DNA of 64,000 nucleotides, taken from the NCBI RefSeq assembly GCF_030012525.1, contig NZ_CP124855.1:62001-126000 (forward strand). The letters run 5' to 3'. The translations under genes and the position numbers were made by a program. This document shows, in pieces, positions 6,468 through 63,967 of this stretch. Numbering within the stretch: position 1 is the stretch's first letter; every line of letters begins with the position of its first letter. Below the pieces are notes generated by a model, which saw nothing but the letters and a program-made list of their open reading frames with translations, had not been told where the DNA came from and searched no databases. The stretch is from Chryseobacterium gotjawalense (GTDB taxonomy: Bacteria > Bacteroidota > Bacteroidia > Flavobacteriales > Weeksellaceae).

Positions 6468-6479
6468 TCTCCAATTAAA

Positions 6480-6514: not shown

Positions 6515-6516
6515 AG

Positions 6517-6744: not shown

Positions 6745-6765
6745 AATAATTTTTTGTGGAAGTTG

Positions 6766-6852
6766 CGGAGAGTAAGGGATTCGAACCCTTGGTACAGTTT
6801 CCCATACGCTTGTTTAGCAAACAAGTCCTTTCGGCCACTCAGGCAACTCTCC
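6766..6852 (-). tRNA. tRNA-Ser (anticodon GCT), copy 2
   Basis: The sequence is the same as the tRNA-Ser at 6381-6467, anticodon GCT. On the minus strand it is the first gene of the whole six-tRNA array. Confidence 0.95.
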
Positions 6853-43957: not shown

Positions 43958-44018
43958 AATTGAGGTGAATTGAGGTGAATTGAGGTGAATGGTGAATTGA
44001 GGTGAATGGTGAATTGGA
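43958..44018. repeat. Tandem 10-bp repeat TGAGGTGAAT
   Basis: TGAGGTGAAT occurs three times head-to-tail at 43961-43990. It then alternates with GGTGAAT to about 44018, and looser copies follow to 44054. Confidence 0.8.
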
Positions 44019-44266
44019 AGAATGGAGATTGGTGAATGATGAATGTTGAATGGGTTCTTGCGCGATTGAGTATTTGGCATCGGGGTGCTCCTTTTTTTAA
44101 CGCAATGGGTTGAGGTTCAATGGTGGTAAAGCAGGACAACAGGGTTTTGTACAATCTAGAAGTTGGCTTTGTACTGTTGGTCACGGTTAATATCCACGAT
44201 ATTGGAAAATGAAGGCTTTACCCATTAATATGCGGTGAGCGAACCTGCGGTCTTTAGGCAGTGGGG

Positions 44267-44316
44267 CATACTATAACCATACTATATCCATACTGTATTC
44301 ATTCTATATCTATTGG
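44267..44316. repeat. Tandem ~11-bp repeat CATACTATAnC
   Basis: About four imperfect units (CATACTATAAC, CATACTATATC, CATACTGTATTC, ATTCTATATC) follow one another. Confidence 0.65.
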
Positions 44317-44383
44317 ATTCGGTATCTTGGGGTAGTATTGATAACTGCTAATAAGATGGCGTAACTCAAAGGGGTTCTTAAAA

Positions 44384-44692
44384 TTACCGGAAGGCCGCGC
44401 GGGCTTTGTGATATAAAGTGATGGGAAAGATGATCGCGTGGACTCTTAAGTCGACCCTCCAAGTAAACAGTTTTTCAATAGAAAGCTGCGTCATTGCGGC
44501 CGTCTTCTTGGTACGGATCACTTTCAGGGTTCCTTTGGTCACAGAGGATGAGTCACGGATCGGTGAGGCTTCATCCAGAATTAAATCTTCTGACTCATGC
44601 TCTTTTGCGGTACTGTAATGATTAAGTTTTGAACTGAGTCCCGGTGAAGTCTGGAATTCTATGATGTGTTCCAGCTGCTCTATGGGGTACAT
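44384..44692 (-). CDS. Hypothetical protein, weakly supported
   Basis: The 102-codon frame opens with ATG 44692 and reads MYPIEQLEHIIEFQTSPGLS, then polar and charged residues, and ends with a more basic part (TWRVDLRVHAIIFPITLYHK). It is not the shadow of another gene, and its base composition looks coding. I recognise no domain. It sits alone upstream of the copper oxidase terminator. Confidence 0.4.
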   Translation of the reverse strand: MYPIEQLEHIIEFQTSPGLSSKLNHYSTAKEHESEDLILDEASPIRDSSSVTKGTLKVIRTKKTAAMTQLSIEKLFTWRVDLRVHAIIFPITLYHKARAAFR

Positions 44693-44768
44693 TTCATTAT
44701 TACCAAAGGAGAAGGCGAACGGCTTCAGTTAAAAATAGATGGTCACCTGTTTTTCGCTCTCCTTTAAA

Positions 44769-44815
44769 CATAAAAAAAGAGTGCAGCCCCAATGACAGGC
44801 TGCACTCTTTTATTG
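44769..44815 (-). terminator. Terminator after the copper oxidase fusion gene
   Basis: Arms AAAGAGTGCAGCC and GGCTGCACTCTTT form a long perfect hairpin with A/T flanks just past the stop codon. Confidence 0.85.
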
Positions 44816-44835
44816 TTTTTTGTAAAGAAGATATC

Positions 44836-47616: not shown

Positions 47617-47623
47617 TTTGTAG

Positions 47624-47995
47624 TTATTTAATTTTTAATAAACTTGTGTTCAGTGGTGCTACAATGGTACCGGCACTCATCAGCACGGCGCCCATCGCTG
47701 GACTCAGCAAAAATGAGGGATATAGAATACCGGCCGCTAACCGAATTGTCAGGACGCTGTAACCCACTGCCCATGCGAGGTTTTGGGTAATTTTTGCGGT
47801 AGTTTTTCTTTTCCAAGTCAATCATTTTTGCAACGGCACCCGGGTCACTGTTCACCGGAATAATGTCTGTAGTTTTCAGCGGCAACATCTGTTCCGAAAC
47901 CTACCGCAATACCCACCTCAGTCTGCGCTAAATCCTGTGCATCGTTTACTCCGTCTCCTGTCATCGCAACGATTTCTCCTTTGTTCCGGAATTCT
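47624..47995 (-). pseudogene. Remnant of a copper-transporting P-type ATPase (C-terminal part)
   Basis: Three reading frames must be joined. One gives [20 protein letters not shown] (the hinge motif GDGVNDA) and [15 protein letters not shown]. The next gives [19 protein letters not shown]. The last gives AKITQNLAWAVGYSVLTIRL and LSPAMGAVLMSAGTIV up to the stop at 47624. Together these match the end of a CopA/CopB-type Cu+ ATPase, ending in the last two membrane helices. The phosphorylation (DKTGT) and N-terminal parts are missing. Frameshifts fall near 47880 and 47805. It probably formed an operon with the copper oxidase gene 8 bp downstream. Confidence 0.75.
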
Positions 47996-48198
47996 TTTTA
48001 AAAATTCCCAAAAATCCATGGATCGTCATCATGGAATCCCCGCCGTTTTTTCAATTACAAATTCTGGGTGTTGTGTATATATACTTTGTTTAAAATCAAC
48101 AGCGTCCACAACGTTGTGAATAAAGGTGAAAAAAGAGGGTCAGGTTTAGTATCTAGAGGGATCTTTGAGTTGCCCAACAGAACCTCTCCCTCTCATGG
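47996..48198. other. Gene-free debris between ATPase remnant and IS4 remnant
   Basis: No intact gene. The part nearest the ATPase remnant may be a decayed continuation of it, but I could not follow the homology beyond 47995. Confidence 0.35.
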
Positions 48199-49511: not shown

Positions 49512-51182
49512 TTATAAGCCAGAAAAGGAGAAATCTATTTTTAATCCTTTTTCTGTTTCAGTGTCAAAAATAATCACTCCCTGCAGATTTACAATACGGG
49601 ATTCCACATTCCGCATTCCATTTTTAAAAATAGTTTCTTTTTTTATTCCTATTCCTGTATCTCTGTAGGCTACCGTAATCCTGTCTTCCATTCTTTCAAA
49701 TCGTAACGTTACCCGATCTGCATGACTGTGTTTTTTCATGTTAACAAGCAGTTCTCTCAATATTTGATAGACTTCCCCTTTTTTGATGTGACTGACCCCT
49801 TCCCAAATCGATGGGTCATTTCCTGCAATAACTGTCTGTACGTTGTGGGTATTAAAATACCCTATTAATTTTCTGATTTTTTCACTGAAAATTTCCGGGC
49901 TGTCGTGTACCTCAATACCTTCATACGATATATTCCGGGATCTATCGTAGACGTATTCCAAATCATCAAGGGTTTCATCTCTGCTGATCTCCAGATTGTT
50001 TTCTAATTTGGTCATCAGCTGATAGATCCCGTTGGCCACCACGTCATGCACTTTTTTCGAGTATTTTAACTCCGTTTTTTTTACTTCCAGGTCTTTTTCC
50101 TGCTGCAGTCTTTTCCTTCTTTTCTTAGAAGACATTATCACAGTTATCATTGTAATTATCAGTCCTGCCGCGATCATCGCCAGATACATCAGTTTCTTTT
50201 GAGATTCCAGTTTTTCAACTTTCAGAATACTGTTTTCGGCTTTGCTTTTTTCTACCCCATACCGGATCAGAGCAAATTGATTTTTGGCTTTGCTGCTTTT
50301 TAATTGAATTTCGGCACTGAGGGTATTGTACGTCTGAAAATTGTCAAGGTAATTATTTTTATCCAAAATAATGATTCTCTTAATGGCCTCCAGAACATCC
50401 GGAGTACTATTGGCTTCTACCGCCGCCTGTTTCATTTGTTTTGCAAACTGTAAGGAGACTGCAGGATCTTTATCGGCATAGTAATCACACAGATTGATAT
50501 AGCTTGAATTTAAACCATGTCTGTTACCGTCTTTCAGTCTGATTTTTAAGGCTTTATGGTAATAGGGTACAGGATTAAAAGTGTTGTCACTAAAATGTTT
50601 TGCATAAGCCCAATTGTTTAAAGCTCTTGCATAATTGATGCTGTCTTTAACCTGAAGTGCAACTTCCAAATTCCGAAGGGCATTTTTAAAGTCCCCTCTC
50701 ATTATTAATACATCCCCAATATTATTATAATACACATATTTATTTTCGGGATGGGTGACAAATTTTAAAGCCAGTTTATAAAAATTCTCAGCATGATCAA
50801 AGTTTCTAAGTTTAGTTGATGCAATGGCAAGATTATTATAATTTGCCGCTAAAAAGCCTTTAGAAATACTGTCATTTTTATTAACCAACAGCGTGTCGGC
50901 TTCCAGCGAGGTTTCAATACTTCCAAAATAATCTCCGTTATCACACTGTATTATTGCCATATTGATAGAAGCCTGTGCGGCTTTTACAGAATCATTATTC
51001 AGTAAATATTCATCTTTTGCTATGCTGTAATAATAAAATGCAGAATCGGAAAGCTTCTCCCCTCTAAATAAATTAGCTTTGTCGTGATTCTTACTGTTGA
51101 CTGCAGGATTTTTATTTACAGGATCCTGTTTTTTACAGGAATAGAAAGTAAAAAAGATTAGAATTAATATCATTCTGAACAT
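49512..51182 (-). CDS. TPR-containing sensor histidine kinase
   Basis: This 556-residue protein starts with a lipoprotein-like or membrane signal (MFRMILILIFFTFYSC). The N-terminal half holds TPR-like repeats (for example NYNNLAIASTKLRNFDHAEN and YYNNIGDVLIMRGDFKNALR). One membrane helix (LMYLAMIAAGLIITMITVIM) leads to a coiled coil, a dimerisation/His region (YSKKVHDVVANGIYQLMTKL) and a HATPase domain with the RELLVNMKKHS N-box and DTGIGIKKE G1 box. This is the HisKA_3 type paired with LuxR regulators. ATG 51182 is preferred over a TTG at 51200. It is coupled to the response regulator gene. Confidence 0.87.
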   Translation of the reverse strand: MFRMILILIFFTFYSCKKQDPVNKNPAVNSKNHDKANLFRGEKLSDSAFYYYSIAKDEYLLNNDSVKAAQASINMAIIQCDNGDYFGSIETSLEADTLLVNKNDSISKGFLAANYNNLAIASTKLRNFDHAENFYKLALKFVTHPENKYVYYNNIGDVLIMRGDFKNALRNLEVALQVKDSINYARALNNWAYAKHFSDNTFNPVPYYHKALKIRLKDGNRHGLNSSYINLCDYYADKDPAVSLQFAKQMKQAAVEANSTPDVLEAIKRIIILDKNNYLDNFQTYNTLSAEIQLKSSKAKNQFALIRYGVEKSKAENSILKVEKLESQKKLMYLAMIAAGLIITMITVIMSSKKRRKRLQQEKDLEVKKTELKYSKKVHDVVANGIYQLMTKLENNLEISRDETLDDLEYVYDRSRNISYEGIEVHDSPEIFSEKIRKLIGYFNTHNVQTVIAGNDPSIWEGVSHIKKGEVYQILRELLVNMKKHSHADRVTLRFERMEDRITVAYRDTGIGIKKETIFKNGMRNVESRIVNLQGVIIFDTETEKGLKIDFSFSGL

Positions 51183-51206
51183 ATTCAATTTTTCATGCAA
51201 AATAAT

Positions 51207-51452: not shown

Positions 51453-51670
51453 TAAAATTATAAAACGCAGAGAAACCAATCAACACAATAAAGGTTTTAA
51501 TAGTTGGAATCATTTAGTTGCGGTGCTTTTCTGCCAATTTGCAAAAAGACAGTCAGTACGCGATAGTAGTAATGGTCTTAGATCCTCTGCTGGAAATCTC
51601 AATCATTGAGGTGTAAACAAAGTGCCTTCCAAATCCTCAATCAGTTATCAAAATAAAGACGCACGCACAT
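51447..51670 (+). mobile_element. IS4-family transposase remnant 2 (DUF4372-type N terminus)
   Basis: The plus frame reads IKIIKRRETNQHNKGFNSWN, HLVAVLFCQFAKRQSVRDS, NGLRSSAGNLNH, then a stop, and GVNKVPSKSSISYQNKDAR. This is the first ~90 residues of a DUF4372-type IS4 transposase, broken by stop codons. The 5' start and the catalytic DDE part are absent. It shares a near-identical 37-bp core with remnant 1 and is in the same orientation. Confidence 0.7.
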
Positions 51671-52066: not shown

Positions 52067-52388
52067 ATGAAAAATTACTCCACAAACGTTTCTGGCAATC
52101 AATAGCAATCTATAAAAAAGACTTTAGAATTTGATCATAGAGAAAGAAAATATGATCTGCGGGAAATATGGAATGTCATTTTGTATAACCTGTAATGAGA
52201 AGTGATGAGAAGAAAACTGGTTTTCAGCCCACCTGCAAAAGATGGATTATTGAGCGTACAATTTCATGGTTTGATAATGACAGAAGATTGTGTAGAAATT
52301 ATGAACTAATAATGGAAACCTTTGAAAATATAGCCAAATTATCCGCCACATAATTTTTATTGAATAAAATTTAAACAGACTCCTAGTA
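52067..52388 (+). mobile_element. IS5-family insertion sequence remnant
   Basis: ATG 52067 opens a transposase N terminus (MKNYSTNVSGNQ, a stop, then HRERKYDLREIWNVILYN), which matches the DUF4096 block of IS5-family transposases. After a deletion, a different part continues from about 52214: KRWIIERTISWFDNDRRLC and NYELIMETFENIAKLSAT to the stop at 52353. The R-W-I-I-E-R-T and N-Y-E blocks are the IS5 C terminus. The right end closes with TTTAAACAGACTCCTA at 52373-52388. The central catalytic part is lost, so it cannot move itself. Confidence 0.75.
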
Positions 52389-52395: not shown

Positions 52396-54300
52396 ATGCA
52401 AAAAATAAATAACAATCCATTTCGTGTAATTGGGATAGTTGCCAATTCATCCGCGAAAGAAATTCAAAGCCGCAGAGGTAAAATTCAGGCGTATGCTAGA
52501 GTTGGAAAAGAAATTTCTTCCGAATATGATTTTGAATTTCTAGAACCTGTTGCACGTAGCGAAGAAGTTATAAATACGGCTTTTTCTGAAATAGAACAAC
52601 ATAAAAATATAATAGACCATTCGCTTTTTTGGTTTACTAATCTTAATCCAATTGATGAAACTGCCATCCAGCATTTAATAAATGGTAATAAGGAAAAAGC
52701 AATTGAAATTTGGGAGAAAATTACGGAAGGAAAGGAGATTAGTTCTAGAAATTTTTCCGCTTTTAATAATATTGGGACTCTTTATTTTTTAGAGGGATCT
52801 GAAGATAAATTAAAGCAGGGAATCGAGCATAAAATAAAACTGATAGAATCAGATCACTTCCAAGATTTTGTTCATTCAGTCGCAGATGAAATGTATACAA
52901 TTGATTCAGAGAAGCAGGTTCAGTTTTTAATTGATGATTTACTAAAACAAATTAACGGTAAATATTCGACTTCCGACAAAATTGCATTGTTTGATGGTAA
53001 TCCTTCTGTGAAAAATTATCTTTCAGGTAAATTCACTGAAGAACCTTTGCATAGAATTGAAACACAAATTGAGCAGTCCAAGAAAAAAAGAGCTTCTAAC
53101 AAAATCAACGCCTACCGCTTCGGATCTGATTTGTTTGAAAATACTGGAAATGATTTATCCCAATTAAAATCAATTTTAGGTATAAGTGATCTTAAATATA
53201 AGATGATTTCGGACAAACTTGCAAAAGAATTACTGCAGTGCTCAATTGATTATTTTAATGAAAGTACAGAACAAGAAATAGACACCGATTATTTACAAGA
53301 AGCTATGTCATTAGCTACCATGGCCCAAAACATAGCTGTCAATAAATTAACAAAAGACAGAATTAAAGACAATATGGATACGCTTGAAGACATGAAAGAT
53401 CGTGAACTTTCTCATGCAATTCAAGTCTTACAATCCGTTAAAGATTCATTTGAAGAAAATGAAAGAGAAATTAGACAGCAAGTAAAACAAATGCAGGATA
53501 ATGACATTCTTATAAAAATGGGTCATAAAACTATAAATTGGGTTGCAGTAGAGGCTAATATTAAAAACTCTATTAATTGGGAAACTGTAAATGATTTATT
53601 AACTGAGATTTTACCCGATAATAAATTAAAGAAAATCAAGCATTGTGATAATACCGAATCTAAAAATGAATTGTGGGAATTATTAAATTGGATTAAAGAA
53701 AACACTTTAAAGAGTTCTACAATATCAATGATAATTGATAAGTATAAAAGAATTCCTCCGAAATTATATTTTGAGATTTTGTCGGCAGATGTGACAAATA
53801 CTGATTCTAAATCCAATATAATTAATAGCCCATTTTATATAGAAAATATTAGGTATATAGGATTAAAGTTAAAATTAAAACCTTTAATAAATAAAAAAGT
53901 TACCTTATATAAAAAATATATAAATCCCGAAGGAAAGTACAGCAATAGTTCTAAGTCCTCTCCACAAGGCTACACAAGTTGTAATGAAATAACAATAACT
54001 TCAGAAACCAATACTATAGACCTTGGGGGTTGGGGAAATGCAACAGAATGCACTGCTCAAGTTGGAGAACATAAAATAGAAATATATGTAGATCATTACA
54101 ATGTATACACAAAAACTTATCAGGTTGATTGGTCTCCAGGAAAGAAAACTGCACTAAAAAGAAATTTATCAATGTTGGAAGACGAATTATTGGAAGTCAA
54201 AAAATTTAAATTATTTAGAATGCCAGAAGCTAAAGAAAAAGAAGTCAATGATGTGCAAACTAAAATTAATAAAGCACGAAAAATATTAATGAATAAATGA
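52396..54300 (+). CDS. J-domain-like protein of an Hsp70 gene cluster
   Basis: This 634-residue protein has no signal peptide or membrane segment. Residues 7-80 (NPFRVIGIVANSSAKEIQSR...RSEEVINTAFSEIEQHKN) follow the J-domain layout: a YxxLGI-like entry, the AS..EI.. helix and the later IN.AF helix. The HPD tripeptide needed to stimulate Hsp70 is absent. Residues ~85-380 are helical with TPR-like and coiled-coil character (QVLQSVKDSFEENEREIRQQ). About 455-575 is beta-rich (GYTSCNEITITSETNTIDLG, GWGNATECTAQVGEHKIEIY). The tail (residue 585 on) is a short charged coil. It overlaps the next gene by 4 bp (ATGA), so they are coupled. The J-like call is my inference from pattern and context. Confidence 0.6.
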   Translation: MQKINNNPFRVIGIVANSSAKEIQSRRGKIQAYARVGKEISSEYDFEFLEPVARSEEVINTAFSEIEQHKNIIDHSLFWFTNLNPIDETAIQHLINGNKEKAIEIWEKITEGKEISSRNFSAFNNIGTLYFLEGSEDKLKQGIEHKIKLIESDHFQDFVHSVADEMYTIDSEKQVQFLIDDLLKQINGKYSTSDKIALFDGNPSVKNYLSGKFTEEPLHRIETQIEQSKKKRASNKINAYRFGSDLFENTGNDLSQLKSILGISDLKYKMISDKLAKELLQCSIDYFNESTEQEIDTDYLQEAMSLATMAQNIAVNKLTKDRIKDNMDTLEDMKDRELSHAIQVLQSVKDSFEENEREIRQQVKQMQDNDILIKMGHKTINWVAVEANIKNSINWETVNDLLTEILPDNKLKKIKHCDNTESKNELWELLNWIKENTLKSSTISMIIDKYKRIPPKLYFEILSADVTNTDSKSNIINSPFYIENIRYIGLKLKLKPLINKKVTLYKKYINPEGKYSNSSKSSPQGYTSCNEITITSETNTIDLGGWGNATECTAQVGEHKIEIYVDHYNVYTKTYQVDWSPGKKTALKRNLSMLEDELLEVKKFKLFRMPEAKEKEVNDVQTKINKARKILMNK

Positions 54301-55205
54301 AAAAAACTCTACTCATACCCATTCTCTTTTCTGCAACAATAATTTTTGCACAAAATCAAAAAAAAGAATTACAAACGCAACAGCAGGACATTACTGTTTT
54401 AAAGCAAAGTATTAATAATCAACAATCTGTAATTGCCAAGCAAAAGAGAGAACTAACAAATCTTTCTTTAAAAGTAGGAAATCAAAAAAATCAGATTGAC
54501 AGTTTAAAAACGGTTACGGAAACTAATGCCAATAATATTAATAAAATAGCAGAAGATTTAGGATCGAAAATTCAGCAAAGTGAAAGCACAAGCAAAGATG
54601 GAATTGCCAAACTGGATAAGAATGTAAATCAAAGCCGTTTATATTGGATTATAGCAACATTACTGACATTACTTTTAGGAGGTATTCTATACTGGCTTCT
54701 TGGAAAACGAATCCAAAGCAGTAAAATTGATGTGGAGACACAGATTAAAAATACTAAAATATCTTTAGAAGAAGAAGGTGTCAAATTAGACAATAAGTTG
54801 GTAGAAGTCTTGGAAACACAATTAAAACTGAAGCAGGAAACAAAAGAAACTCTAAGCACAATCCAGCACCCAACAGAAATCGATCATTCATTAGCTTTGA
54901 AAGTTGCAGATGAAATTGTAAGAATGCAAAAAAATATTTCAAAAATGGATGAAGATATCAAAGGATTAAAATCACTGGTAAAAGGTATTGAAAGAATACA
55001 AGCAAATTTTGCTTCAAACGGTTATGAAATGGTCAATCTTATATATAAAGATTATGATGAAAGAATGAATATTGACGTAATCAATTTCGTGACAGATGAA
55101 AATTTGGTAGATGGAAAAAAAGTTATTACGGCGGTTATTAAACCACAAGTGAATTTCAACGGTGTTCTCATTCAACGAGCACAAGTTGATGTTTCACAAA
55201 ACTAA
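54297..55205 (+). CDS. Membrane-anchored coiled-coil protein with GrpE-like cytoplasmic domain
   Basis: This 302-residue protein has an N-terminal signal-like segment (MKKTLLIPILFSATIIFAQ), a periplasmic coiled coil (residues 20-110), one membrane helix (LYWIIATLLTLLLGGILYWL, about 115-135) and a cytoplasmic coiled coil (140-190). The last ~105 residues resemble GrpE. A helical part (LALKVADEIVRM...LVKGIERIQANFASNGYEMV) is followed by a beta part (DERMNIDVINFVTDENLVDG, KKVITAVIKPQVNFNGVLIQ, RAQVDVS). This recalls the GrpE ending ...GY.L.GRVLRPA.V.V. GrpE is the nucleotide-exchange factor of DnaK. Position directly before an Hsp70 gene supports this. GrpE similarity is inference by eye. Confidence 0.6.
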   Translation: MKKTLLIPILFSATIIFAQNQKKELQTQQQDITVLKQSINNQQSVIAKQKRELTNLSLKVGNQKNQIDSLKTVTETNANNINKIAEDLGSKIQQSESTSKDGIAKLDKNVNQSRLYWIIATLLTLLLGGILYWLLGKRIQSSKIDVETQIKNTKISLEEEGVKLDNKLVEVLETQLKLKQETKETLSTIQHPTEIDHSLALKVADEIVRMQKNISKMDEDIKGLKSLVKGIERIQANFASNGYEMVNLIYKDYDERMNIDVINFVTDENLVDGKKVITAVIKPQVNFNGVLIQRAQVDVSQN

Positions 55206-55224
55206 AATATTAAAAAACATTATA

Positions 55225-57741
55225 ATGGCAAGAACTAAAATAGATTACGGTATAGACTTAGGAACAACAAATTCAGGGATCTCTAGAATGGAGAATGGAG
55301 AAGCAAAAATCATAAAAATAAATGGTCAAGATGATACTATGCCATCTTGTATTGCATATAACAAAAAAGGAGTTTTAGCAGGAAAAAAAGCATTTGCTGT
55401 TTACCGTAGTGACCAAGAAGCAAGCCTATCTAAAGATATTGAACCAAACGCCTTTATCGAGTTCAAAAGAACAATGGGAACCGATAAAAAATATTTCAGT
55501 TCAAATATTGCAAAAGATTTGAGTTCTGAAGAATTATCCGCAGAAGTTTTAAAAACGCTTAAATCCTTTGTAACAGACGAAAATGTAAATGCGGTTGTTA
55601 TAACTGTTCCAGCAGCATTCAAAAATAATCAAATTGATGCCACGAGAAGAGCAGCAAAACTAGCAGGGTTTGAACATACAGAAGTTTTACAAGAACCAGT
55701 CGCGGCTGCTATGGCTTATGGACTGGACTCAAAAAAGAAAGATGGGTTTTGGCTGGTTTTTGATTTTGGAGGCGGAACATTTGATGCTGCTCTACTAAAA
55801 GTTGAAGATGGTATTATGAAAGTTGCAGATACAGAAGGAGATAATTATTTGGGTGGAAAAAATTTAGATTTAGCAGTTGTAGACGAAATAATTATTCCAC
55901 ATATCCAAAAGAATTATACAATTGATAATATTTTGAGTGATGATAACAAAAAGGCAAATTATCGTGACGCATTAAAACCTTTTGCAGAGGAATTGAAAAA
56001 TGAATTATCATTCAATACTGAATTCAATTTATATAAAGAAGAAGGTTCTGGTACAGATGATGATGGAGAAGAAATCGAAATTGACTTAACAGTATCACAA
56101 TCCGAATTAGAAAAAGTGTTATCTCCTGTTTTCCAAAAAGCTTTAGAGATTTCCAAAAGACTATTAGAAAGAAATAATTTACAAGGTTCGTCTTTGGACT
56201 CATTAATTTTAGTTGGTGGCCCAACATTTTCTCCCGTATTGCGAAAAATGTTGGAAGACCAAATTTGCAAACCCGACACCACTGTAGATCCAATGACTGT
56301 GGTTTCTAAAGGTGCTGCTTTATATGCTTCAACCGTTACCGTTTCGGAAGAAGTTGCAGAACAGACAAGAGATCGATCAAAAATTCAGATTGAAATTGGA
56401 CATGAATCTACCACGGTAGAAATGGAAGAATTTGTGACGCTGAAAATTTTAGTTGAAAAAACAGAAGGCATAATTCCCGAAAAAGTTTTTGCTGAAATTA
56501 CCAGAAGCGACAAAGCTTGGGCAAGCGGTCAAATTGAAATTAATGAAATCGGCGAAGTGATTGAAGCGAATCTGCTAGAAGGTAAAACCAATGGTTTCGA
56601 AGTCACATTATATGATAATAATGGTAATATTATTGAAAGCGAACCTAAAACATTTACTATAATTCAAGGACTAGGAGGAATTGGTTCAATGCAAACACTT
56701 CCATACAACTTCGGTATTGAACTAAAACAAAGAACAACAGGAAAAATAGTATTTTCTCAAGTTCAAGGATTAGAGAAAAATAAATCATTACCAGTAACTG
56801 GGACAAAAAATAATCTAAAGACTCAAAAGCAGATTCGTCCTGGTATGGAATCTGACTTTATAAAAATTCCCCTTTATCAAGGAGAACATAAATCAGAAGG
56901 TACTAGAGCAATCTATAATGAACATGTTTATGATATTATTATTAGTGGGAATGATTTGCCAGCATTATTACCTGAAAACAGTGATGTAGATTTAACGGTT
57001 AATATTGATAAATCGCAAGAAGTTACAATTCAAGCATTTTTTCCATATCTTGATCATACAGAAGAAATAAAAGTTCCGACAGATAAGGTTCAATCAACTG
57101 CAACTACTTGGCTTGCCAATGAACTACGCAAAGCAAAAGGTACAATCGAAGAATTGAAAGAGGATAATGTTACTACTGACAAGGTTCAAAAACTTGAAAA
57201 TGAAATTCTTGAATTAGAAAAGAAATTTGAAAACAATAAGAATGATGTTGATGGTAAACAAGAAGTTTTAACAAATCTTAGAAAAACACTCAAAAAAATT
57301 GATGAATTAAGTGAAACTACAGAGTGGCCGAAATTAGAAGAAGAACTGAAAGAAGAATTTTACCGTTTAGAGAAAGCCAATGCCGATTTTGGAAATGATC
57401 AAACTACCGAAATTGTAAATCAGGTACGAACTCAATTGGATGAAGTACTCAAATCCCAAGATCCTAAATTAGGAGCTGCTTTGTTAGATGAGATAAATAG
57501 CATTTTTATTAAGATTACTTTAATTTATCAGCTTATTAATATAATCAGAGGACACAACCAGCAGTTTGATTCTTATAGTTGGAAGAACACCCATCGCGCA
57601 AGACAGTTAATTAATGAAGGATTACAGGTAATCGGGAATAATCCGACAACAGATGAATTACATCCTATTGTTATGGAATTATTTGATTTGCTTCCAGATG
57701 AACAAAAACCTAGTGGAGACGATACGGTTTTGGTGGGTTAA
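55225..57741 (+). CDS. Hsp70-family chaperone 1, with intact ATPase motifs
   Basis: This 838-residue protein starts with the Hsp70 nucleotide-binding domain: phosphate-1 loop GIDLGTTNS (D11), the catalytic Lys in FKRTMG (K81), VPAAFKNNQIDATRRAAKLA, LQEPVAAAMAYGLD, phosphate-2 FDFGGGTFDAA and adenosine motif LILVGGPTFSPVLRKML. Unusually, a beta-rich segment of ~110 residues (about 395-500) separates it from a substrate-binding-like region (LPYNFGIELKQRTTGKIVFS). A long helical lid (about 640-760) and a helical C terminus end the chain. It is much longer than DnaK (about 640 residues). I chose ATG 55225 because it begins MARTKIDYGIDLGTT; the upstream start overlaps the previous gene. It is 19 bp after the GrpE-like gene. 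Confidence 0.88.
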   Translation: MARTKIDYGIDLGTTNSGISRMENGEAKIIKINGQDDTMPSCIAYNKKGVLAGKKAFAVYRSDQEASLSKDIEPNAFIEFKRTMGTDKKYFSSNIAKDLSSEELSAEVLKTLKSFVTDENVNAVVITVPAAFKNNQIDATRRAAKLAGFEHTEVLQEPVAAAMAYGLDSKKKDGFWLVFDFGGGTFDAALLKVEDGIMKVADTEGDNYLGGKNLDLAVVDEIIIPHIQKNYTIDNILSDDNKKANYRDALKPFAEELKNELSFNTEFNLYKEEGSGTDDDGEEIEIDLTVSQSELEKVLSPVFQKALEISKRLLERNNLQGSSLDSLILVGGPTFSPVLRKMLEDQICKPDTTVDPMTVVSKGAALYASTVTVSEEVAEQTRDRSKIQIEIGHESTTVEMEEFVTLKILVEKTEGIIPEKVFAEITRSDKAWASGQIEINEIGEVIEANLLEGKTNGFEVTLYDNNGNIIESEPKTFTIIQGLGGIGSMQTLPYNFGIELKQRTTGKIVFSQVQGLEKNKSLPVTGTKNNLKTQKQIRPGMESDFIKIPLYQGEHKSEGTRAIYNEHVYDIIISGNDLPALLPENSDVDLTVNIDKSQEVTIQAFFPYLDHTEEIKVPTDKVQSTATTWLANELRKAKGTIEELKEDNVTTDKVQKLENEILELEKKFENNKNDVDGKQEVLTNLRKTLKKIDELSETTEWPKLEEELKEEFYRLEKANADFGNDQTTEIVNQVRTQLDEVLKSQDPKLGAALLDEINSIFIKITLIYQLINIIRGHNQQFDSYSWKNTHRARQLINEGLQVIGNNPTTDELHPIVMELFDLLPDEQKPSGDDTVLVG

Positions 57742-57748
57742 CCTTTAA

Positions 57749-58435
57749 ATGATGAATATGAAAAAAATAGTATTATCTATGTTCTTTGCTTTATCGCTAC
57801 TCATTTCCTGTGAATCTGAAACCGATAAAAAAAATCGGTTAGTGATCGAGGAAAAAGACCGTATAGAACTGGTGAAAAAAAATGCCGAAGAAACCAAAAA
57901 TGAAAATTTACGTTTAGAGCAAGTGCGTATCGAGCAGGAAAAAGTGGCAGAAGCAAGTCGTCTTGAAAAAGAAGCACAACTGGAAAAAGAAGGACTTGAA
58001 CAGGAATTGCATGATAAGTATATTAATAATTCCTTACAAACCGGCGCGACGCCTTATTCAAAGTATTTCGGTGGGAATTCATCTTGTAGTTCTTACGGCT
58101 GTTCTCAAATAAAAGTTCAGACCAGTAATTCTGATGTTATAGTTACCATAAAGAAAAATGATAAAGTAGTTCGTCATGCATTTATTCGTGCAGGTGGCAA
58201 TTATACTTTTTCATTTCCTAACGGTGTTTATCAGGCTTTCTTTTATTACGGGAAAGGCTGGAATCCAGAAAAAGCCATGAAAAATGGAGAAATAAAAGGC
58301 GGTTTTATTGCTGAAGAAAACTTTGGTAAAGACGATCCTCAATCGCTTAGTAATAATGTACTTGAGTATCAGTTGATTTTACAACGGGATGGAAACTTCA
58401 GCACTAGACCAAGTAATTCGGATGAGGCTTTATAA
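57749..58435 (+). CDS. Coiled-coil lipoprotein with C-terminal beta domain
   Basis: This 228-residue protein has a lipoprotein signal (lipobox LLISC, Cys 21 from the first ATG; ATG 57758 is an equal start). Residues ~25-90 form a highly charged coiled coil (LRLEQVRIEQEKVAEASRL). The C-terminal part has a small Cys/Ser loop (GGNSSCSSYGCSQIKV) and a beta domain (SDVIVTIKKNDKVVRHAFIR...YQAFFYYGKGWNPEK). I do not recognise a family. It should sit in the envelope and lies between the two Hsp70 genes, 8 bp after the first. With the membrane GrpE-like protein it gives the cluster an envelope arm. Confidence 0.75.
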   Translation: MMNMKKIVLSMFFALSLLISCESETDKKNRLVIEEKDRIELVKKNAEETKNENLRLEQVRIEQEKVAEASRLEKEAQLEKEGLEQELHDKYINNSLQTGATPYSKYFGGNSSCSSYGCSQIKVQTSNSDVIVTIKKNDKVVRHAFIRAGGNYTFSFPNGVYQAFFYYGKGWNPEKAMKNGEIKGGFIAEENFGKDDPQSLSNNVLEYQLILQRDGNFSTRPSNSDEAL

Positions 58436-58481
58436 CTGAATAGTTCGTGAAATTGGTTAACTTTTAATTTAAGTAATAACA

Positions 58482-60965
58482 GTGCATATAGATATAGGCA
58501 TACATTTAGGTTCAAGTTCTGCATCTATTGCCCAAGTGGTAGATGGAGAAGTCATGATTATTAAATCTGATACACTTAAAGACTCTATTCCAATGTGTGT
58601 TTACATCAATAAGAAGAAAGCACTACAAGTTGGTGATAGCGCATATAATGCTTTAAAAAGAGATCAGCTCTCGTCAATGAAAAGTGATGAAAGCTCTTCA
58701 AATTCTTTTATTGGATTTAGAAGAACGATTGGTACAGATAAGTTGTACTTTAGTTCTAACGCAGATAAATCTTTTAAATCTGAAGAGTTAGTCGCAGAAA
58801 TTTTCAAGTATTTAATTTCTTTTGTAAAAGATAAATGGGTTAGAAGTGCGGTGATTACGGTACCATCCAATTTTAAGAATAACCAACAAGAAGCAATAAG
58901 GGAAGCTGCAAAGTTGGCGGGTTTGCAACAGATTGAATTACTGCAGGAACCAGTTGCCGCTGCTATGGCTTATGGTCTCGATTCTAAAAAGAAAGATGGT
59001 TATTGGTTAGTATTCGATTTTGGAGGAGGAACATTTGATGCTGCTCTACTTAAAGTCGAAGACGGAATTATGAAAGTGGCTGATACCGAGGGTGATAGTT
59101 ATTTAGGTGGTAAAAATCTGGATTTAGCAATCGTGGATGAAATCATCTTACCGTATTTGCAGGAAAATTATTCTATCGATTCGATTCTAAATGATGTAAA
59201 AAAAATAAACGCATTCAAAGAAATGTGGAAACCTTTGGCAGAAGATGCTAAAAACCAATTGTCCTATAAAGATGAATATCCTATACTTACGAATTTATAT
59301 GATGAATATGGTGAAGATGATGAAGGTGAAGAGTTTGAGTTGGATATTACAGTCACTCAAAATGATATGAAGCGGGCTCTTGGACCGGTTTTTCAAAAAT
59401 CTATTGATGTTTCTAAAAAATTATTGGAGCGTAATAATCTTAAAGGTTCATCTTTAGATTCACTAATTCTAGTTGGTGGGCCTACTTTTTCTCCTGTATT
59501 GCGAAAAATGTTGGAAGATCAAATTTGTAAACCTGACACCACTGTTGATCCGATGACTGTAGTTTCTAAAGGTGCGGCTTTATATGCTTCAACTGTTACC
59601 GTTTCGGAAGAAGTTGCAGAACAGACAAGAGATCGATCTAAAATCCAACTTGAAATTGGACATGAAGCTTCCACCGTAGAAATGGAAGAATTCGTGACAC
59701 TAAAAATTCTGACTGGTAAAACAGAAGGAACTATTCCCGAAAAAGTGTTTGCTGAAATTACAAGATGTGACAATACATGGTCGAGTGGTAAGGTTGAAAT
59801 TAATGACATTGATGAAGTAATAGAGACTCAACTTCTGGTAGGTAAGTCTAATTCTTTTCAAGTTACATTATATAACGACAAAGGAAATATGTTGGAAAGT
59901 GAACCAAACGAATTTACTATAATACAAGGTCCTAGAATTGGAAGTGCAACTCTTGCTTATAATATTGGTATTGAAATTAAAAAACAAGATTCTGGTAAAA
60001 TTATTTTTTCTACAATTCAAGGTTTAGAAAAAAATCAATCATTGCCTGCTGTAGGTAACAAAAATGGTATAAAAACAGACAAGCCAATTCGTCCCGGAAT
60101 ATCATCTGATTTTATCAGGATTCCAATTTACGAAGGCGAACACAATGCGGAAGGAACCAGAGCAATATACAATGAGCATATTACTGATATAAGAATTTCT
60201 GGGGTAGATTTACCTTCATTATTACCTGAGAATAGTGATGTAGATTTAACAGTAACTATTGATAGATCCGAAAAAATTACAGTTAACGCATACTTTCCTT
60301 ATTTAGATTATTCTTATGAAGTGAGTGTAGAAAGAACTGTTTCATCGATCGAAACTCCTTGGCTTTCCAATGAAATACGCAAAGCAAAAGGAGCAATCGA
60401 GGAATTGAAAGATGATAATGTTTCCGCTGACAAGGTTGAGAAAGTTGAAAATGAAATTCTTGAATTAGAAAAGAAATTTGAAAACAATAAAAGCGATATT
60501 GATGGTAAACAAGAAGTGTTGACAAATCTTAGAAAAACATTCAAAAAAATTGATGAATTAAGTGAAACCACAGAATGGCAGAAATTAGAAAAAGAACTGA
60601 AAGAAGAATTCCACCGTTTAGAGAAAGCTAACAGCGATTTGGGAAATGAAAACATTTTTAAAGTTGTCAATAAGATAAGAACTCAATTAGAGGAAGTGCT
60701 CAAATTGAAAGATCCTAAATTAGGTACTGCTTTATTATCCCAAATCTTGAATCTTAAACTTTACAAGAACGAAGATAATTATGTATTTATACCTGAAGTT
60801 GCAGAGATAATATCAGCAAGTCAAATAGAAAATTTACTATTTGATTTAGCATTAGAGAAGAAAATTTCTTCAGAAAAATTCCAGATTTTATATAATGTTT
60901 TGCAAGAAGAAAATAGCTCTTCAAAATTAATCGAAATAAATTCCGAGTTAAAATCGTATGAATAG
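58482..60965 (+). CDS. Hsp70-family protein 2, with degenerate ATPase residues
   Basis: This 827-residue paralogue of the upstream Hsp70 starts with GTG, the only start that fits the alignment. The phosphate-1 loop reads GIHLGSSSA instead of GIDLGTTNS, so the metal/nucleotide Asp is His (H8). The catalytic Lys block reads GFRRTIG, so Lys is Arg (R80). The phosphate-2 loop FDFGGGTFDAA, the Glu in QEPVAAAMAYGLD and the adenosine motif are kept. It probably binds nucleotide with poor hydrolysis. The beta insert, substrate-binding region and helical lid resemble paralogue 1, but the last ~100 residues differ (KLYKNEDNYVFIPEVAEIIS). Its stop overlaps the kinase-AAA gene by 8 bp. Confidence 0.88.
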   Translation: MHIDIGIHLGSSSASIAQVVDGEVMIIKSDTLKDSIPMCVYINKKKALQVGDSAYNALKRDQLSSMKSDESSSNSFIGFRRTIGTDKLYFSSNADKSFKSEELVAEIFKYLISFVKDKWVRSAVITVPSNFKNNQQEAIREAAKLAGLQQIELLQEPVAAAMAYGLDSKKKDGYWLVFDFGGGTFDAALLKVEDGIMKVADTEGDSYLGGKNLDLAIVDEIILPYLQENYSIDSILNDVKKINAFKEMWKPLAEDAKNQLSYKDEYPILTNLYDEYGEDDEGEEFELDITVTQNDMKRALGPVFQKSIDVSKKLLERNNLKGSSLDSLILVGGPTFSPVLRKMLEDQICKPDTTVDPMTVVSKGAALYASTVTVSEEVAEQTRDRSKIQLEIGHEASTVEMEEFVTLKILTGKTEGTIPEKVFAEITRCDNTWSSGKVEINDIDEVIETQLLVGKSNSFQVTLYNDKGNMLESEPNEFTIIQGPRIGSATLAYNIGIEIKKQDSGKIIFSTIQGLEKNQSLPAVGNKNGIKTDKPIRPGISSDFIRIPIYEGEHNAEGTRAIYNEHITDIRISGVDLPSLLPENSDVDLTVTIDRSEKITVNAYFPYLDYSYEVSVERTVSSIETPWLSNEIRKAKGAIEELKDDNVSADKVEKVENEILELEKKFENNKSDIDGKQEVLTNLRKTFKKIDELSETTEWQKLEKELKEEFHRLEKANSDLGNENIFKVVNKIRTQLEEVLKLKDPKLGTALLSQILNLKLYKNEDNYVFIPEVAEIISASQIENLLFDLALEKKISSEKFQILYNVLQEENSSSKLIEINSELKSYE

Positions 60966-62727
60966 TAAAATATCTACATTAACAAAAGGTCAAATAATTG
61001 ACGATAAATATTCAGTAAGTTTTTTTCTGAAGAAAGGAACTTATGCGGAAACATACCGTGTTCAAAATGAAGCGAAAGAAATTAAATTTCTGAAATTGTT
61101 TGATTTTGCAAAATTACACCGTACACAATTTACAGAGAGTGGAGATCTACTTGAAATTGAAATCTTAAAAAAAATCAGTCATCCCAATATTGCTAAATAC
61201 AATGCAAGTGGTTATACAATGATTGACAATCAGAAATTTGCTTATGTAGTTTTAGATTTTATTAGCGGCGAGACTTTGGCTGATAAAATGAAAAGAGAAG
61301 AGAAATTAACTTCTTATGAAGCAAAAAACATTGTTTTGAGCGTTTTAAACGGCTTGAATTACTTGCACACTCTACCAAATTCTGTTATTCATAACGATAT
61401 TACAATCCAAAACATCATGCTGGATCTTTCGGGGAAAGTTGAGATTCCGAAAATTATTGATTTCGGTTATTCCAGATTCTTAACGCAGTCGAATAAAGAT
61501 TTTTTGAAAGAGGGATTGAATTTGTTTTACACGGCAAATGAAACCTTAAATAAGGTTTTCTCGGTTCAAAGTGATATTTTTTCAGTTGGAGCGTTGTATT
61601 ACCATTTGGTGACGGGATTACCACCATATTTTATAGAAATTTCAAAATATAAATCTGATAAAATACAGCTCGAAGAATCTATTTTGGAACAAAGACAAAA
61701 GCCACTAAAGTTTCCAGAACATATTGACGGACATACCAAATTAATTATTTCGAAAGCTTTACAACCAAAATCAGAAAACAGGTTTAAGTCGGTCAATGAA
61801 TTTTTGAAGATTCTAAATGGAGACTTGGAGGTTGAACTTTCTGTACCTGAAGAAAAGGCGCAGAAATCTTATGAGAAAGAAAAGAAAAAAGGCAAAGGTT
61901 TTTCAGCGATAGCAGGAATGTCTGCATTAAAGGCACAGTTGCAATTAGATGTAATAGATGCTCTACATAATTCGGAAGAATATGCAAAATACGGCGTAAC
62001 TATACCTAACGGGATGCTTTTATATGGTCCTCCAGGTTGTGGGAAAACCTTTTTTGCTAAACATTTTGCAGAAGAAGTGGGTTTCAATTATGTACATGTA
62101 AATCCCGGCACATTAAAAAGCCGTTATGTTAATGCCACGGAAGAGAATATCTCAAAATTATTTCAGGAAGCAGAAAAGAATGCTCCTACAATTATTTTCA
62201 TAGAAGAAATTAGTGGTTTATTCCCAAGCCGAGATAGTGATGCGCACGAAATGTCAAAAAATGCCGTAGAAGCAATGCTGGCTGAAATGGACAGAACAGG
62301 TGAAAAAGGAATTTTTGTATTATGTGCAACCAATTATCCAGATAAAATTGATGCTGCACTATTGAGGGCAGGAAGATTAGATAAAAAAGTTTATTTATCA
62401 CCGCCTGATTTTGAAGCAAGAATGGCTATGTTCGAAATGTATTTAAAATCGCGTCCTATTGATTTGGGGCTTGATTATGAATTACTGGCAAAATTAACTG
62501 AAAATTACGTTTCTTCTGATATCAAAGATTTAATTGTGGATGAAGCATCACGATTTGCATTAAAAGCCAAGTCAAAAATAACGATGAAAATTTTAGAAGA
62601 AGTTATTAGTAGAACAAGACCTTCCGTCTCCTTACTCGAATTAGAGAAATATGAAATAATTAGAAAAAAAATTGAAGGAGAAGACAGCATAATTTCAGAC
62701 AGACCTACAATAGGATTTAAAAAATAA
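60958..62727 (+). CDS. Ser/Thr protein kinase fused to an AAA+ ATPase
   Basis: This 589-residue cytoplasmic protein has an N-terminal Hanks-type kinase domain (about 12-285). It shows a reduced Gly loop (KKGTYAETY), Lys 43 in EIKFLKL, a catalytic loop VIHNDITIQN (Asp 147, Asn 152) and DFG at 168-170. A Lys-rich linker leads to an AAA+ domain (about 315-560) like FtsH/CDC48 modules. It has Walker A GPPGCGKT (357-364), Walker B IIFIEEIS with the usual Asp replaced by Glu, sensor-1 Asn in CATNYPD, and Arg fingers in LLRAGRLDKKVY. Kinase activity looks possible but is not certain. It is coupled to Hsp70-2 by an 8-bp overlap and is 3 bp before the TerB-like gene. Confidence 0.87.
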   Translation: MNSKISTLTKGQIIDDKYSVSFFLKKGTYAETYRVQNEAKEIKFLKLFDFAKLHRTQFTESGDLLEIEILKKISHPNIAKYNASGYTMIDNQKFAYVVLDFISGETLADKMKREEKLTSYEAKNIVLSVLNGLNYLHTLPNSVIHNDITIQNIMLDLSGKVEIPKIIDFGYSRFLTQSNKDFLKEGLNLFYTANETLNKVFSVQSDIFSVGALYYHLVTGLPPYFIEISKYKSDKIQLEESILEQRQKPLKFPEHIDGHTKLIISKALQPKSENRFKSVNEFLKILNGDLEVELSVPEEKAQKSYEKEKKKGKGFSAIAGMSALKAQLQLDVIDALHNSEEYAKYGVTIPNGMLLYGPPGCGKTFFAKHFAEEVGFNYVHVNPGTLKSRYVNATEENISKLFQEAEKNAPTIIFIEEISGLFPSRDSDAHEMSKNAVEAMLAEMDRTGEKGIFVLCATNYPDKIDAALLRAGRLDKKVYLSPPDFEARMAMFEMYLKSRPIDLGLDYELLAKLTENYVSSDIKDLIVDEASRFALKAKSKITMKILEEVISRTRPSVSLLELEKYEIIRKKIEGEDSIISDRPTIGFKK

Positions 62728-62730
62728 AAA

Positions 62731-63234
62731 ATGGATAAGGTAACTTTTGATGAGATTTTGCTAAAAACAGCTTTCTGCTGTATGGCATCAGACGGAAATA
62801 TTGACAAGAGAGAAATTGAAATGATACAGTTTCTTTGTGAAAATTCAGAACAGTTCGGAAATTTTAATTTTCAACAGGCTATTAATAATTTGGTTCAGAA
62901 AATAAATTCAGATGGGCATCATTTTATTAAAGAATATTTAAATATTCTCGAAAATGCTGAATTAAATGAAAAAGAAGAAATTCTTTTGTTGGATTTTGCA
63001 ATTAAAACGATTCAGGCTGATGATGAAATCGAATATTCTGAAATTAAATTCTTTAAGACCATCCGGCATCGCTTAACAATCTCAGATGAAACTATTCTTG
63101 CTTTTCATCCTGGTATTGAAGATTACCTAGAAGAAGATATTATTACTCCTTCTTTAGACAAATTAACAGATCATTTTTTTGAGACATTGAATTTAAATAA
63201 CTTCGAGGAAATTGTAATATCAACCGAAAATTAG
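62731..63234 (+). CDS. TerB-like (tellurite-resistance TerB family) protein
   Basis: This 167-residue all-helical cytoplasmic protein fits the TerB fold. Its N-terminal repeat unit contains AFCCMASDGNIDKREIEMIQ, the D-G-x-[IV]-xx-x-E pattern of TerB. A second copy (LLLDFAIKTIQADDEIEYSE) holds the D-x-E counterpart, as expected for the two-part TerB fold. TerB domains bind metal and occur in tellurite, colicin and phage-resistance gene sets; their exact function is not settled. It starts 3 bp after the kinase-AAA gene, so it belongs to the same transcript. Confidence 0.7.
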   Translation: MDKVTFDEILLKTAFCCMASDGNIDKREIEMIQFLCENSEQFGNFNFQQAINNLVQKINSDGHHFIKEYLNILENAELNEKEEILLLDFAIKTIQADDEIEYSEIKFFKTIRHRLTISDETILAFHPGIEDYLEEDIITPSLDKLTDHFFETLNLNNFEEIVISTEN

Positions 63235-63374
63235 CAAAAAAAAGGATTTGTTCCTTCTCGATTAATTTACAGGAGTGACAAAGTTTTAGCGAAAATTTTT
63301 AAGGCTAGGTAAGTTTTTATATATTTTGCACTTGTAGAAATAGCCAACCATTGGCATAAATTTTAAATTAAATA
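63235..63374 (+). other. Spacer before the last gene of the cluster
   Basis: A 140-bp AT-rich spacer with no hairpin terminator that I can see, so the next gene may still belong to the operon. Confidence 0.35.
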
Positions 63375-63397
63375 ATGAGAGGAGATAGAGGCTTTGG

Positions 63398-63967
63398 ATG
63401 TACCTGGATTATTCTAATAGGTATTGCAATTTTATTGGATTAGACTATCTAAGTCATCGCAAAAGTGGAAAAGAATATCAAGAACGTATAGATTCTATTA
63501 AGGATTGGAAAAAACCAAATTTAAATTATTTTAAGGCTTTCGATTGTTCTCCATCATTAGACGAAACACGTAACACAAAAATATTAAAATTCTTTGTTTT
63601 CTACACCGATAAAGATGCAAATTGTGATATAGAAGAAATTCAAAAACCCACGATCACTTTTAAAAATCTTAATATTTTAGATTATGAATTTAATTTAATT
63701 AAGGATTCAAATGTTCTAATTTGGATCAAAAAAATAGAAGGTGAATCAGAAGGCACTTATACTGATGGTAGTTATGCTATTAGATTAAATGCTGAAATTA
63801 ATTTTATAAATAAAAATTCTAATGTAATCTACAAACAAGTTATTTTAAAATGTGTTGGAGAACCAACCGAAAAATTTAAAAAAAGTAAGTATTCAAAAAG
63901 TCAAGATTTATATTTTGGATCATTGCCATTAGACGAAATTTCAAATTTGATTGAAAAGAAATGGTAA
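63398..63967 (+). CDS. Hypothetical protein, possibly missing an N-terminal membrane anchor by frameshift
   Basis: I do not recognise this 189-residue protein. It is polar and alternates beta- and turn-rich stretches (KPTITFKNLNILDYEFNLIK, GSYAIRLNAEINFINKNSNV), with no clear motif. An ATG at 63375, in another frame, reads MRGDRGFGCTWIILIGIAIL and stops at 63441 just where this frame continues with LDYLSHRKSGKEYQERIDS. This suggests that the true protein begins at 63375 with a membrane helix and that one base was lost or gained near 63430. It follows TerB on the same strand by 163 bp. Confidence 0.55.
   Translation: MYLDYSNRYCNFIGLDYLSHRKSGKEYQERIDSIKDWKKPNLNYFKAFDCSPSLDETRNTKILKFFVFYTDKDANCDIEEIQKPTITFKNLNILDYEFNLIKDSNVLIWIKKIEGESEGTYTDGSYAIRLNAEINFINKNSNVIYKQVILKCVGEPTEKFKKSKYSKSQDLYFGSLPLDEISNLIEKKW

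Follow-up and report, generated by a model that had tools for sequence, protein, structure and literature searches.

A horizontally moving Hsp70–AAA+ operon of Bacteroidota as a candidate immune or envelope-stress device

Chaperones are accessories of immunity, and an operon that encodes an Hsp70 of its own is described here from a 64,000-nucleotide window of the closed 3.27 Mb genome of Chryseobacterium gotjawalense (contig NZ_CP124855.1, positions 62,001 to 126,000). Its core encodes a J-like scaffold, a GrpE-like protein with a predicted membrane segment, an Hsp70 and a kinase-like domain fused to an AAA+ module. The closest described systems are predicted conflict systems built around GTPases (Kaur et al. 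2020, PMC7159879), a subset of which includes Hsp70, GrpE and DnaJ or TPR proteins. The operon is like these GAP1-N2 systems in its operonic Hsp70, GrpE and DnaJ/TPR partner, its membrane links and its predicted conflict role, and they sometimes contain a second Hsp70 that lacks a peptide-binding domain, which recalls the second Hsp70 found here. However, TRAFAC GTPases and GAP1 form their centre, together with FNIII proteins, and their Hsp70 theme occurs mainly in actinobacteria and firmicutes, whereas the present operon has a kinase–AAA+ protein and TerB instead and belongs to Bacteroidota. Neither a TRAFAC GTPase nor GAP1 is matched by Pfam in the eight proteins of the window, the flanks of the other loci not having been scanned for either.

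Type III-A CoCoNuTs (CnuD; PMC11090510) similarly combine degenerate Hsp70-like ATPase domains with a predicted defence operon and often with kinase modules, but they centre on the McrB GTPase with McrC and on HEPN RNases, none of which is matched by Pfam in the core described here. In bNACHT25 (PMC12169576) a chaperone co-factor also takes part in phage sensing; bNACHT25 is, however, a single NLR-related protein that uses host DnaJ, with no encoded chaperone operon. The canonical DnaK–DnaJ–GrpE system shares with the operon an Hsp70 ATPase domain with intact motifs, a GrpE-like fold and a co-chaperone-like scaffold, but differs in that the operon has no HPD J-domain and no recognised canonical substrate-binding domain, and its GrpE-like protein has a transmembrane (TM) segment; the host dnaK lies elsewhere in the genome. 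A TerB-like protein is shared with Ter-linked modules, and the kinase and AAA domains score on the PADLOC models for PD-T4-6, MADS and IetA kinase or AAA proteins, as generic domains only. With PADLOC, one protein of the cluster matches kinase/AAA models, the other seven match nothing below 1e-3, and no specific system model is matched. A search of openly available papers, which leaves out the majority of subscription articles and of preprints not in PubMed Central, listed none that appears to describe the operon, as judged by titles, starts of abstracts and passages; on DUF6804, CFI-box-CTERM and plasmid pHALHY02 the same kind of search returned the Haliscomenobacter genome paper (PMC3156403) alone. 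The logic of the operon is thus close to that of Hsp70-containing predicted conflict operons, with different core genes. New features are the GrpE-like protein predicted to span the membrane, the swapped tails of the scaffold, a second Hsp70 degenerate at its ATP site, and a kinase domain without the HRDxK lysine beside a strictly conserved AAA+ module.

The first-pass annotation of the window had proposed a single system of eight same-strand genes with overlaps or gaps mostly below 50 bp, encoding a J-like protein, a membrane GrpE-like protein, two Hsp70s, a lipoprotein, a kinase–AAA+ fusion and a TerB-like protein, and had inferred a role in stress or anti-phage conflict from insertion sequence (IS) debris on its border and from TerB and kinase–AAA partners known from conflict loci. 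All eight open reading frames (ORFs) are found on the plus strand at the places it gave (Table 1), and six of the seven intergenic distances (in order -4, +19, +7, +46, -8, +3 and +163 bp, the second presuming the ATG at 55225 as the start of Hsp70-1) are below 50 bp. Pfam recognises Hsp70 twice and Pkinase with AAA once, and finds TerB just below the curated cut-off; the four remaining proteins of the cluster have no Pfam match above cut-off.

The core of this cluster recurs across Bacteroidota. A scan seeded with the kinase–AAA protein, with one genome per species, gave 17 loci, and two samples of 395 genomes added ten genomes; with L069 dropped (same contig as L039) this makes 26 other loci. 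The order J-like, GrpE-like, Hsp70, kinase–AAA is kept in 21 of the 26, and in the remaining five (L043, L045, L068, L070 and L073) a contig end falls within the core or close to it. As it is conserved in this many loci, the gene order is more than chance. In L037 the J-like gene lies in three frames with the core order otherwise kept; a passenger gene for an AAA_14/DUF4143 protein (L037:8793-9989) lies directly upstream of its kinase–AAA gene. Among the accessory genes, a gene for a DUF6804 membrane protein is present in 16 of the 26 other loci, TerB in 15 (as a fragment in L050) and a gene for a separate protein with a lipoprotein-type domain in six; DUF6804 was not found in the Chryseobacterium gotjawalense locus itself. 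When the GrpE-like alignment was used as the seed in 320 genomes of the family, nine matches were obtained in eight genomes, the own genome included. Four of these genomes (G728, G932, G940 and G942) overlap the kinase–AAA set, and of the new places three (L164, L166 and L168) hold the whole operon while L165 is cut by a contig end; L165 and L168 are two versions of the system in one genome (G765). The same operon is therefore reached from two seed genes, and the result that the genes travel together is independent of the seed. The eighth ORF has no match in any of the 26 other distinct loci (17 searched at E ≤ 1e-4 and nine further at E ≤ 1e-3, with ORFs of at least 70 residues) and is rejected as a component, so that the conserved cluster here consists of seven genes (52396-63234) rather than the eight proposed. 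This seven-gene operon, with its core of J-like, GrpE-like, Hsp70 and kinase–AAA+ genes, is a real conserved unit.

Table 1. Features of the locus in the window (positions are those of the window).
Feature	Position	Strand	Basis
Left edge of variable island	51455..51456	.	blastn against two sister genomes
IS remnant	52120..52365	+	multicopy matches; transposase C-terminus by eye
J-like/TPR-like scaffold with exchangeable C-terminal tail (here predicted β-sandwich and helices)	52396..54300	+	ORF, AlphaFold model
Membrane GrpE-like protein (predicted)	54297..55205	+	ORF, predicted TM segment and fold
Hsp70-1, ATPase-domain motifs intact	55225..57741	+	Pfam, motif alignment, PDB sequence search
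Predicted lipoprotein	57749..58435	+	lipobox-like start by eye
Hsp70-2, second copy, probable pseudo-Hsp70	58482..60965	+	motif alignment, tree
Kinase-like domain fused to classical AAA+ module (FtsH/Vps4-like)	60958..62727	+	Pfam, motif counts
TerB-like protein, accessory	62731..63234	+	sub-threshold Pfam; plasmid homologue annotated TerB family
Eighth ORF, probably no component	63398..63967	+	unmatched in 26 other loci

The two large proteins are members of the Hsp70 family, as annotated. PF00012 matches Hsp70-1 with 226 bits (9.1e-67) and Hsp70-2 with 188 bits (3.1e-55), against a cut-off of 20.6, in each case over the ATPase domain. In the 60 rows inspected, of 125 from a sequence search of the PDB, the best stretch likewise reaches no further than residue 384, and no canonical substrate-binding domain is recognised by sequence in Hsp70-1. 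A motif survey covered 29 proteins, 26 of them first or single copies and three second copies. The phosphate-1 loop DLGTTNS is present in 26/26 first or single copies and the K70-like lysine in 25/26, the position being unreadable in L072; Hsp70-1 retains both. All three second copies have lost the two features, with GIHLGSSS and Arg in Hsp70-2 of the window, GIYIGTSS and Thr in L070, and GIYFNNDF and Thr in L043, where the contig end leaves just a C-terminal piece of the first copy. Each of the three sits between the first copy and the kinase–AAA gene; in L070 a KilA-N gene (L070:2343-3224), a passenger, follows the second copy, directly upstream of the kinase–AAA gene. Having lost ATP-site residues, Hsp70-2 is not the equivalent of Hsp70-1 and is a probable pseudo-Hsp70. 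A single origin of the pseudo-Hsp70 copies was rejected, as the tree, which has long branches, requires at least two changes and does not place the three copies in one clade. Hsp70-1 and Hsp70-2 (55225-60965) show patchy identity in the ATPase region, 38-96% per 50 residues. Stretches at 88-96% lie next to others at 38-46%, a pattern like that left by gene conversion, which may blur the tree. The tail of Hsp70-2 was also considered as a fused DUF6804 gene, which was rejected since the alignment is without similarity.

The GrpE-like protein is predicted to have a signal-peptide-like start and one TM segment (residues 118-136). In the predicted topology a coiled coil lies outside the cytoplasm, and a second coiled coil with a GrpE-type β domain is cytoplasmic. 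The predicted fold shows the long helix and β domain expected of GrpE, and GrpE structures fill the first 11 Foldseek rows; Pfam does not report PF01025 (GrpE) for this protein. A profile search of the PDB with the alignment of the family is uninformative, as the best 60 of 687 rows cover the N-terminal coiled-coil half.

The scaffold begins with a conserved NP(Y/F) motif, a glycine and an LFWF-like motif. Its AlphaFold model (pLDDT 78.7, low around residues 460-488 and 547-554) consists mostly of helices followed by a β-sandwich and a helical hairpin, the N-terminus being helical at a pLDDT of about 67-77. Foldseek gives no PDB match to this model at E ≤ 1e-3, with lists dominated by helical repeats. 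VIA returns helical repeats and β-sandwiches with no J-domain in the 50 entries inspected, which excludes nothing, and the J-like profile compared with the PDB gives six rows (best E 0.012), none of them credible. The tail of this protein is variable. Pairs whose first 340 residues agree at 60% or more number 29; they are formed from 24 proteins and are not independent. Of these pairs, 17 are without detectable tail similarity and two more have only a short match. The clearest swap is between L041 and L051, in which the N-terminal part is 91% identical and the flanking operon DNA 90-95% identical. The tail types include the β-sandwich of the window as well as a lipoprotein-type domain, a CFI-box type and a single TM segment, and the alignments indicate that scaffold tails are exchanged between close relatives.

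The lipoprotein is predicted from a lipobox-like start, seen by eye. Its C-terminal domain recurs as the tail of the J-like protein in related loci, and in L073 (5705-7663), downstream of Hsp70, kinase–AAA and TerB, a DnaJ domain (PF00226, 1.4e-9, over cut-off) is joined to a lipoprotein-type domain. This fusion ties the lipoprotein to Hsp70 work.

The kinase–AAA+ fusion is supported by Pfam, with Pkinase (PF00069) at 3.3e-36 (125.5 bits against a cut-off of 31.7) and AAA at 1.4e-36. Motifs were counted in 27 proteins, namely those of the window, the plasmid described below and 25 of the 26 other loci (truncated L045 left out). Walker A lysine and Walker B catalytic glutamate are each present in 27/27. 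In the kinase domain the HRDxK lysine is present in 0/27, the catalytic position holds Asp in 14 proteins, Glu in ten and another residue in three, and the DFG aspartate and VAIK lysine are kept in 24 and 26 proteins, respectively. The window protein retains the Asp, Asn, DFG and Lys without the HRDxK lysine; the set of features of an active Ser/Thr kinase (HRDxKxxN loop, DFG and VAIK lysine) is thus incomplete. By these counts the AAA+ motor is strictly constrained and the phosphotransfer residues are not, and the kinase-like domain, although well over the Pfam cut-off, may be a weak kinase or a pseudokinase. By eye the window protein also looks mosaic, its kinase part resembling L041/L051 and its AAA part L043/L044. 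The TerB-like protein scores 21.8 bits with PF05099 (E 2.4e-4) against a cut-off of 24.4; its plasmid homologue is annotated as TerB family.

The operon is no fixed set of housekeeping genes, and its genes do travel together, so that neither of the two outcomes that would have told against the annotation is observed. A full-length relative of the kinase–AAA protein is absent from 60 relatives, including all 35 other genomes of the genus (0/35); the best matches there reach at most 139 bits, over the AAA part. The protein is present in 5/394 other genomes of the phylum sample and 6/394 of the order sample, G199 being in both. Three blocks of operon DNA are 90-95% identical in L041, from a metagenome-assembled genome (MAG) of Chitinophaga, and L051, from Flavobacterium micromati. 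L038, from a Chryseobacterium MAG, and L040, from an isolate of Myroides, have operon DNA that is 93% identical along 10.5 kb. The Hsp70 tree agrees with these cross-family pairs. Since two of the four members are MAGs, binning errors are possible; judged from the sequences, the operon is transferred across families and, with this caveat, across orders.

A plasmid copy is also found. On pHALHY02 of Haliscomenobacter hydrossis the core and TerB lie between a SIR2/WD40 group and BREX genes, and this plasmid is the sole match in plasmid searches with the kinase–AAA protein (1e-50), the GrpE-like protein (1e-6) and the N-terminus of the J-like protein (1e-6). A more divergent kinase–AAA query matches 224 plasmid records at 1e-30, of which only pHALHY02 covers 80% of the query; 14 other records among the matches listed cover the AAA half or slightly more. 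An origin in phages was rejected, as the kinase–AAA protein is unmatched in a collection of 50,697 phage records at 1e-40, and viral contigs gave no confirmed match in a search that reaches close relatives only.

In the window the operon lies in a variable island. The DNA common to sister genomes G017 (99.3%) and G030 (87%) ends at its left edge, and similarity to G017 resumes about 34.5 kb further on in the coordinates of the own genome, past the end of the window. At this site G017 holds 21.4 kb of different DNA, in which AbiEi/AbiEii are encoded (E 1.7e-72 and 1.4e-97). The system has a GC content of 0.319, lower than the 0.377-0.40 of four comparison stretches from this genome. The proposed IS debris on the border stands as multicopy DNA, with eight matches in the own genome (itself counted), 11 in G003, five in G017 and one in G008; its assignment to a transposase depends on one frame that, read by eye, resembles the C-terminus of such an enzyme. 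Elements like IS3 and IS110 (by eye, one of them multicopy) also lie near the locus, and a TonB receptor and a peptidase further out.

Defence genes adjoin several of the related loci. From the flanks of the 26 loci 159 ORFs of at least 160 residues were taken, of which 150 were scanned with PADLOC in two pools (64 and 86) and nine left out. The pools match 73 and 117 families at E ≤ 1e-15 (best 25 of each inspected). As pools do not name their members, 48 flank proteins were also scanned singly, and 15 of these matched at the limits used. Matches are found in at least 6 of the 26 flanks: a DISARM/BrxH-like helicase (4.3e-84), a Type IIG restriction–modification (RM) protein (E=0) and TmtA (2.3e-142) in L039; HEC-06/Orf5 (1.1e-82) in L041; DpdF (1.6e-107) in L049; a Type I methyltransferase (2.7e-145), a specificity subunit (7.3e-34), DndD (1.8e-134) and PDC-S14 (3.3e-16) in L053; a Type I methyltransferase (8.4e-143) and ThsB (3.8e-112) in L064; and PDC-S60 (1.5e-30) in L067, HEC and PDC models being those of candidate systems. 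Matches in L042 (one GlgB-like protein) and L052 (two subtilase proteins) were discounted as generic, and some strong pooled matches (e.g. PDC-S22, PDC-S01 and SspB) are without a traced locus. The control consisted of eight 20-kb windows placed arbitrarily at 1.00-1.02 Mb in the genomes of relatives (ten taken, two left out); 117 of their 118 proteins were scanned as a pool, which matches 15 families, the best at 1.3e-30. At E ≤ 1e-40 at least 9/150 flank proteins match, counting only proteins with a known place, compared with 0/117 in the control (p=0.005; proteins of the same locus are not independent). This horizontally moving block encodes a chaperone machine of its own, apparently linked to the membrane by the GrpE-like protein, and adjoins virus-defence genes in several relatives, which suggests that it may serve bacteria as an immune or envelope-stress device of a new kind.

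The favoured interpretation, for which belief and doubt are evenly balanced, is that the operon is a mobile conflict system in which Hsp70 and AAA+ parts are anchored to the envelope, with defence against phages as its most likely role. We infer the antiphage role, the envelope sensing, the direction of the signal and the target; the folds and topology are predicted. The coiled coil of the GrpE-like protein would sense a perturbation of the envelope (e.g. phage adsorption or DNA entry), with the lipoprotein and the DUF6804 membrane protein sometimes assisting. The perturbation would alter nucleotide exchange on a membrane-held Hsp70, which would then load or release the kinase–AAA+ motor, and the motor would remodel or unfold a target. 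The place or manner of action would be set by the exchangeable scaffold tail (TM segment, CFI box or β domain), which may itself be an effector directed at the membrane. Both the second Hsp70 and the kinase-like domain would mainly regulate the nucleotide state or serve as scaffolds, with catalysis of lesser importance.

Several results weigh against this interpretation. The J-like assignment of the annotation fares badly: PF00226 gives no match to the scaffold at E ≤ 1, no HPD motif occurs in the aligned N-termini, and hhalign against 22 J domains aligns 26 residues locally with a P of 9e-4 and a probability of 23% (1.5% globally), a stretch that reads to us as J-domain helices I-II. In L068 and L073, both cut by contig ends, the J-like gene is downstream of TerB and not upstream. 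The membrane GrpE-like assignment keeps its predicted fold and TM segment, but hhalign against the GrpE profile is negative (P=0.16), and VIA ranks BAG-type and unrelated helical bundles above GrpE for the model. No nuclease, TIR, NADase or pore effector is recognised by Pfam in the core. In the flanks, 33 of the 48 singly scanned proteins of other loci have no match at the limits used, and the own flanks give one weak PADLOC match (PDC-S31, 3e-7) among ten proteins. At E ≤ 1e-40 at least 5/26 loci compare with 0/8 control windows (p=0.24, not significant), so that, in spite of the p of 0.005 for proteins, the association with defence is clear in examples and not statistically secure per locus.

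It is somewhat unlikely that the operon is instead a mobile stress-tolerance cassette, an inner-membrane machine of Hsp70 and AAA+ for disaggregation and quality control that heat, metal or envelope stress, and not phages, would select; this rival nevertheless carries appreciable weight. Every core part resembles proteostasis parts, the membrane GrpE-like protein, the lipoprotein and DUF6804 point to the envelope, and the own flanks hold no strong defence genes. Small Hsp and ClpG are, however, hallmark genes of known mobile heat-resistance loci, and neither is among the Pfam matches of the core. Ter genes have been linked to xenobiotic resistance (PMC7824862), whereas some of the loci adjoin BREX, RM, Dnd-like, Thoeris or Dpd genes, the site in the sister genome holds AbiE, and tail swapping with repeated loss of the ATP site looks like conflict-driven evolution. 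A machine for the assembly or maintenance of an envelope structure (a secretion, gliding or surface complex), with Hsp70 and AAA+ as dedicated assembly chaperones, would fit the envelope parts and the variable membrane tails of the J-like scaffold; it is very unlikely, as the operon occurs in about 1-2% of sampled genomes, its plasmid copy lies between defence genes, and clustering of the 17 named loci and the own locus revealed no further gene family common to many loci in flanks within 10 kb. A loose accretion of neighbouring mobile genes, to which the IS remnant on the left, the IS-like genes downstream and the unconserved eighth gene might point, is practically refuted for the core by the same order and tight spacing in 21/26 loci and in loci from a different seed gene.

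Within the interpretation as a conflict system, a more specific form is unlikely and is offered tentatively. In this form the operon would be a receptor-type Hsp70 immune machine, in which the TM GrpE-like protein is a surface sensor that gates nucleotide exchange on a dedicated Hsp70, and this Hsp70, with the pseudo-Hsp70 and the kinase-like AAA+ motor, drives the exchangeable, membrane-directed tails of the J-like scaffold, exchange itself being the transmembrane signalling step. We know of no described chaperone or defence system in which nucleotide exchange serves as transmembrane signalling, and the paper searches listed none.

A transferable operon with its own Hsp70, a predicted membrane exchange factor, an AAA+ motor and swappable tails would represent a new wiring of envelope events to protein remodelling. 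The operon offers a direct test of Hsp70 nucleotide exchange as a sensing step, and, occurring in at least six named Bacteroidota families, it is a well-delimited candidate for phage-defence screens.

Some further observations concern the surroundings. A sensor-kinase/response-regulator-like pair (named by eye), whose members fall into the same two protein clusters each time, adjoins the system in three loci (49515-51200 in the window, L046:470-2873 and L053:891-3218); since it lies outside the island edge, its position beside the system in the window is possibly due to chance. At the island site of G017 (L149:7305-20000 and L150:1-9750) a phage-tail-sheath-like protein, identified by eye, spans L149 into L150. 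Elsewhere in the window, positions 44001-48000 have a GC content of 0.43-0.47 per kb, compared with 0.27-0.37 after them, and include a 926-residue protein that seems heavy-metal related by eye. At 6127-6852 on the minus strand a tRNA cluster contains the series Arg-Pro-Ser twice.

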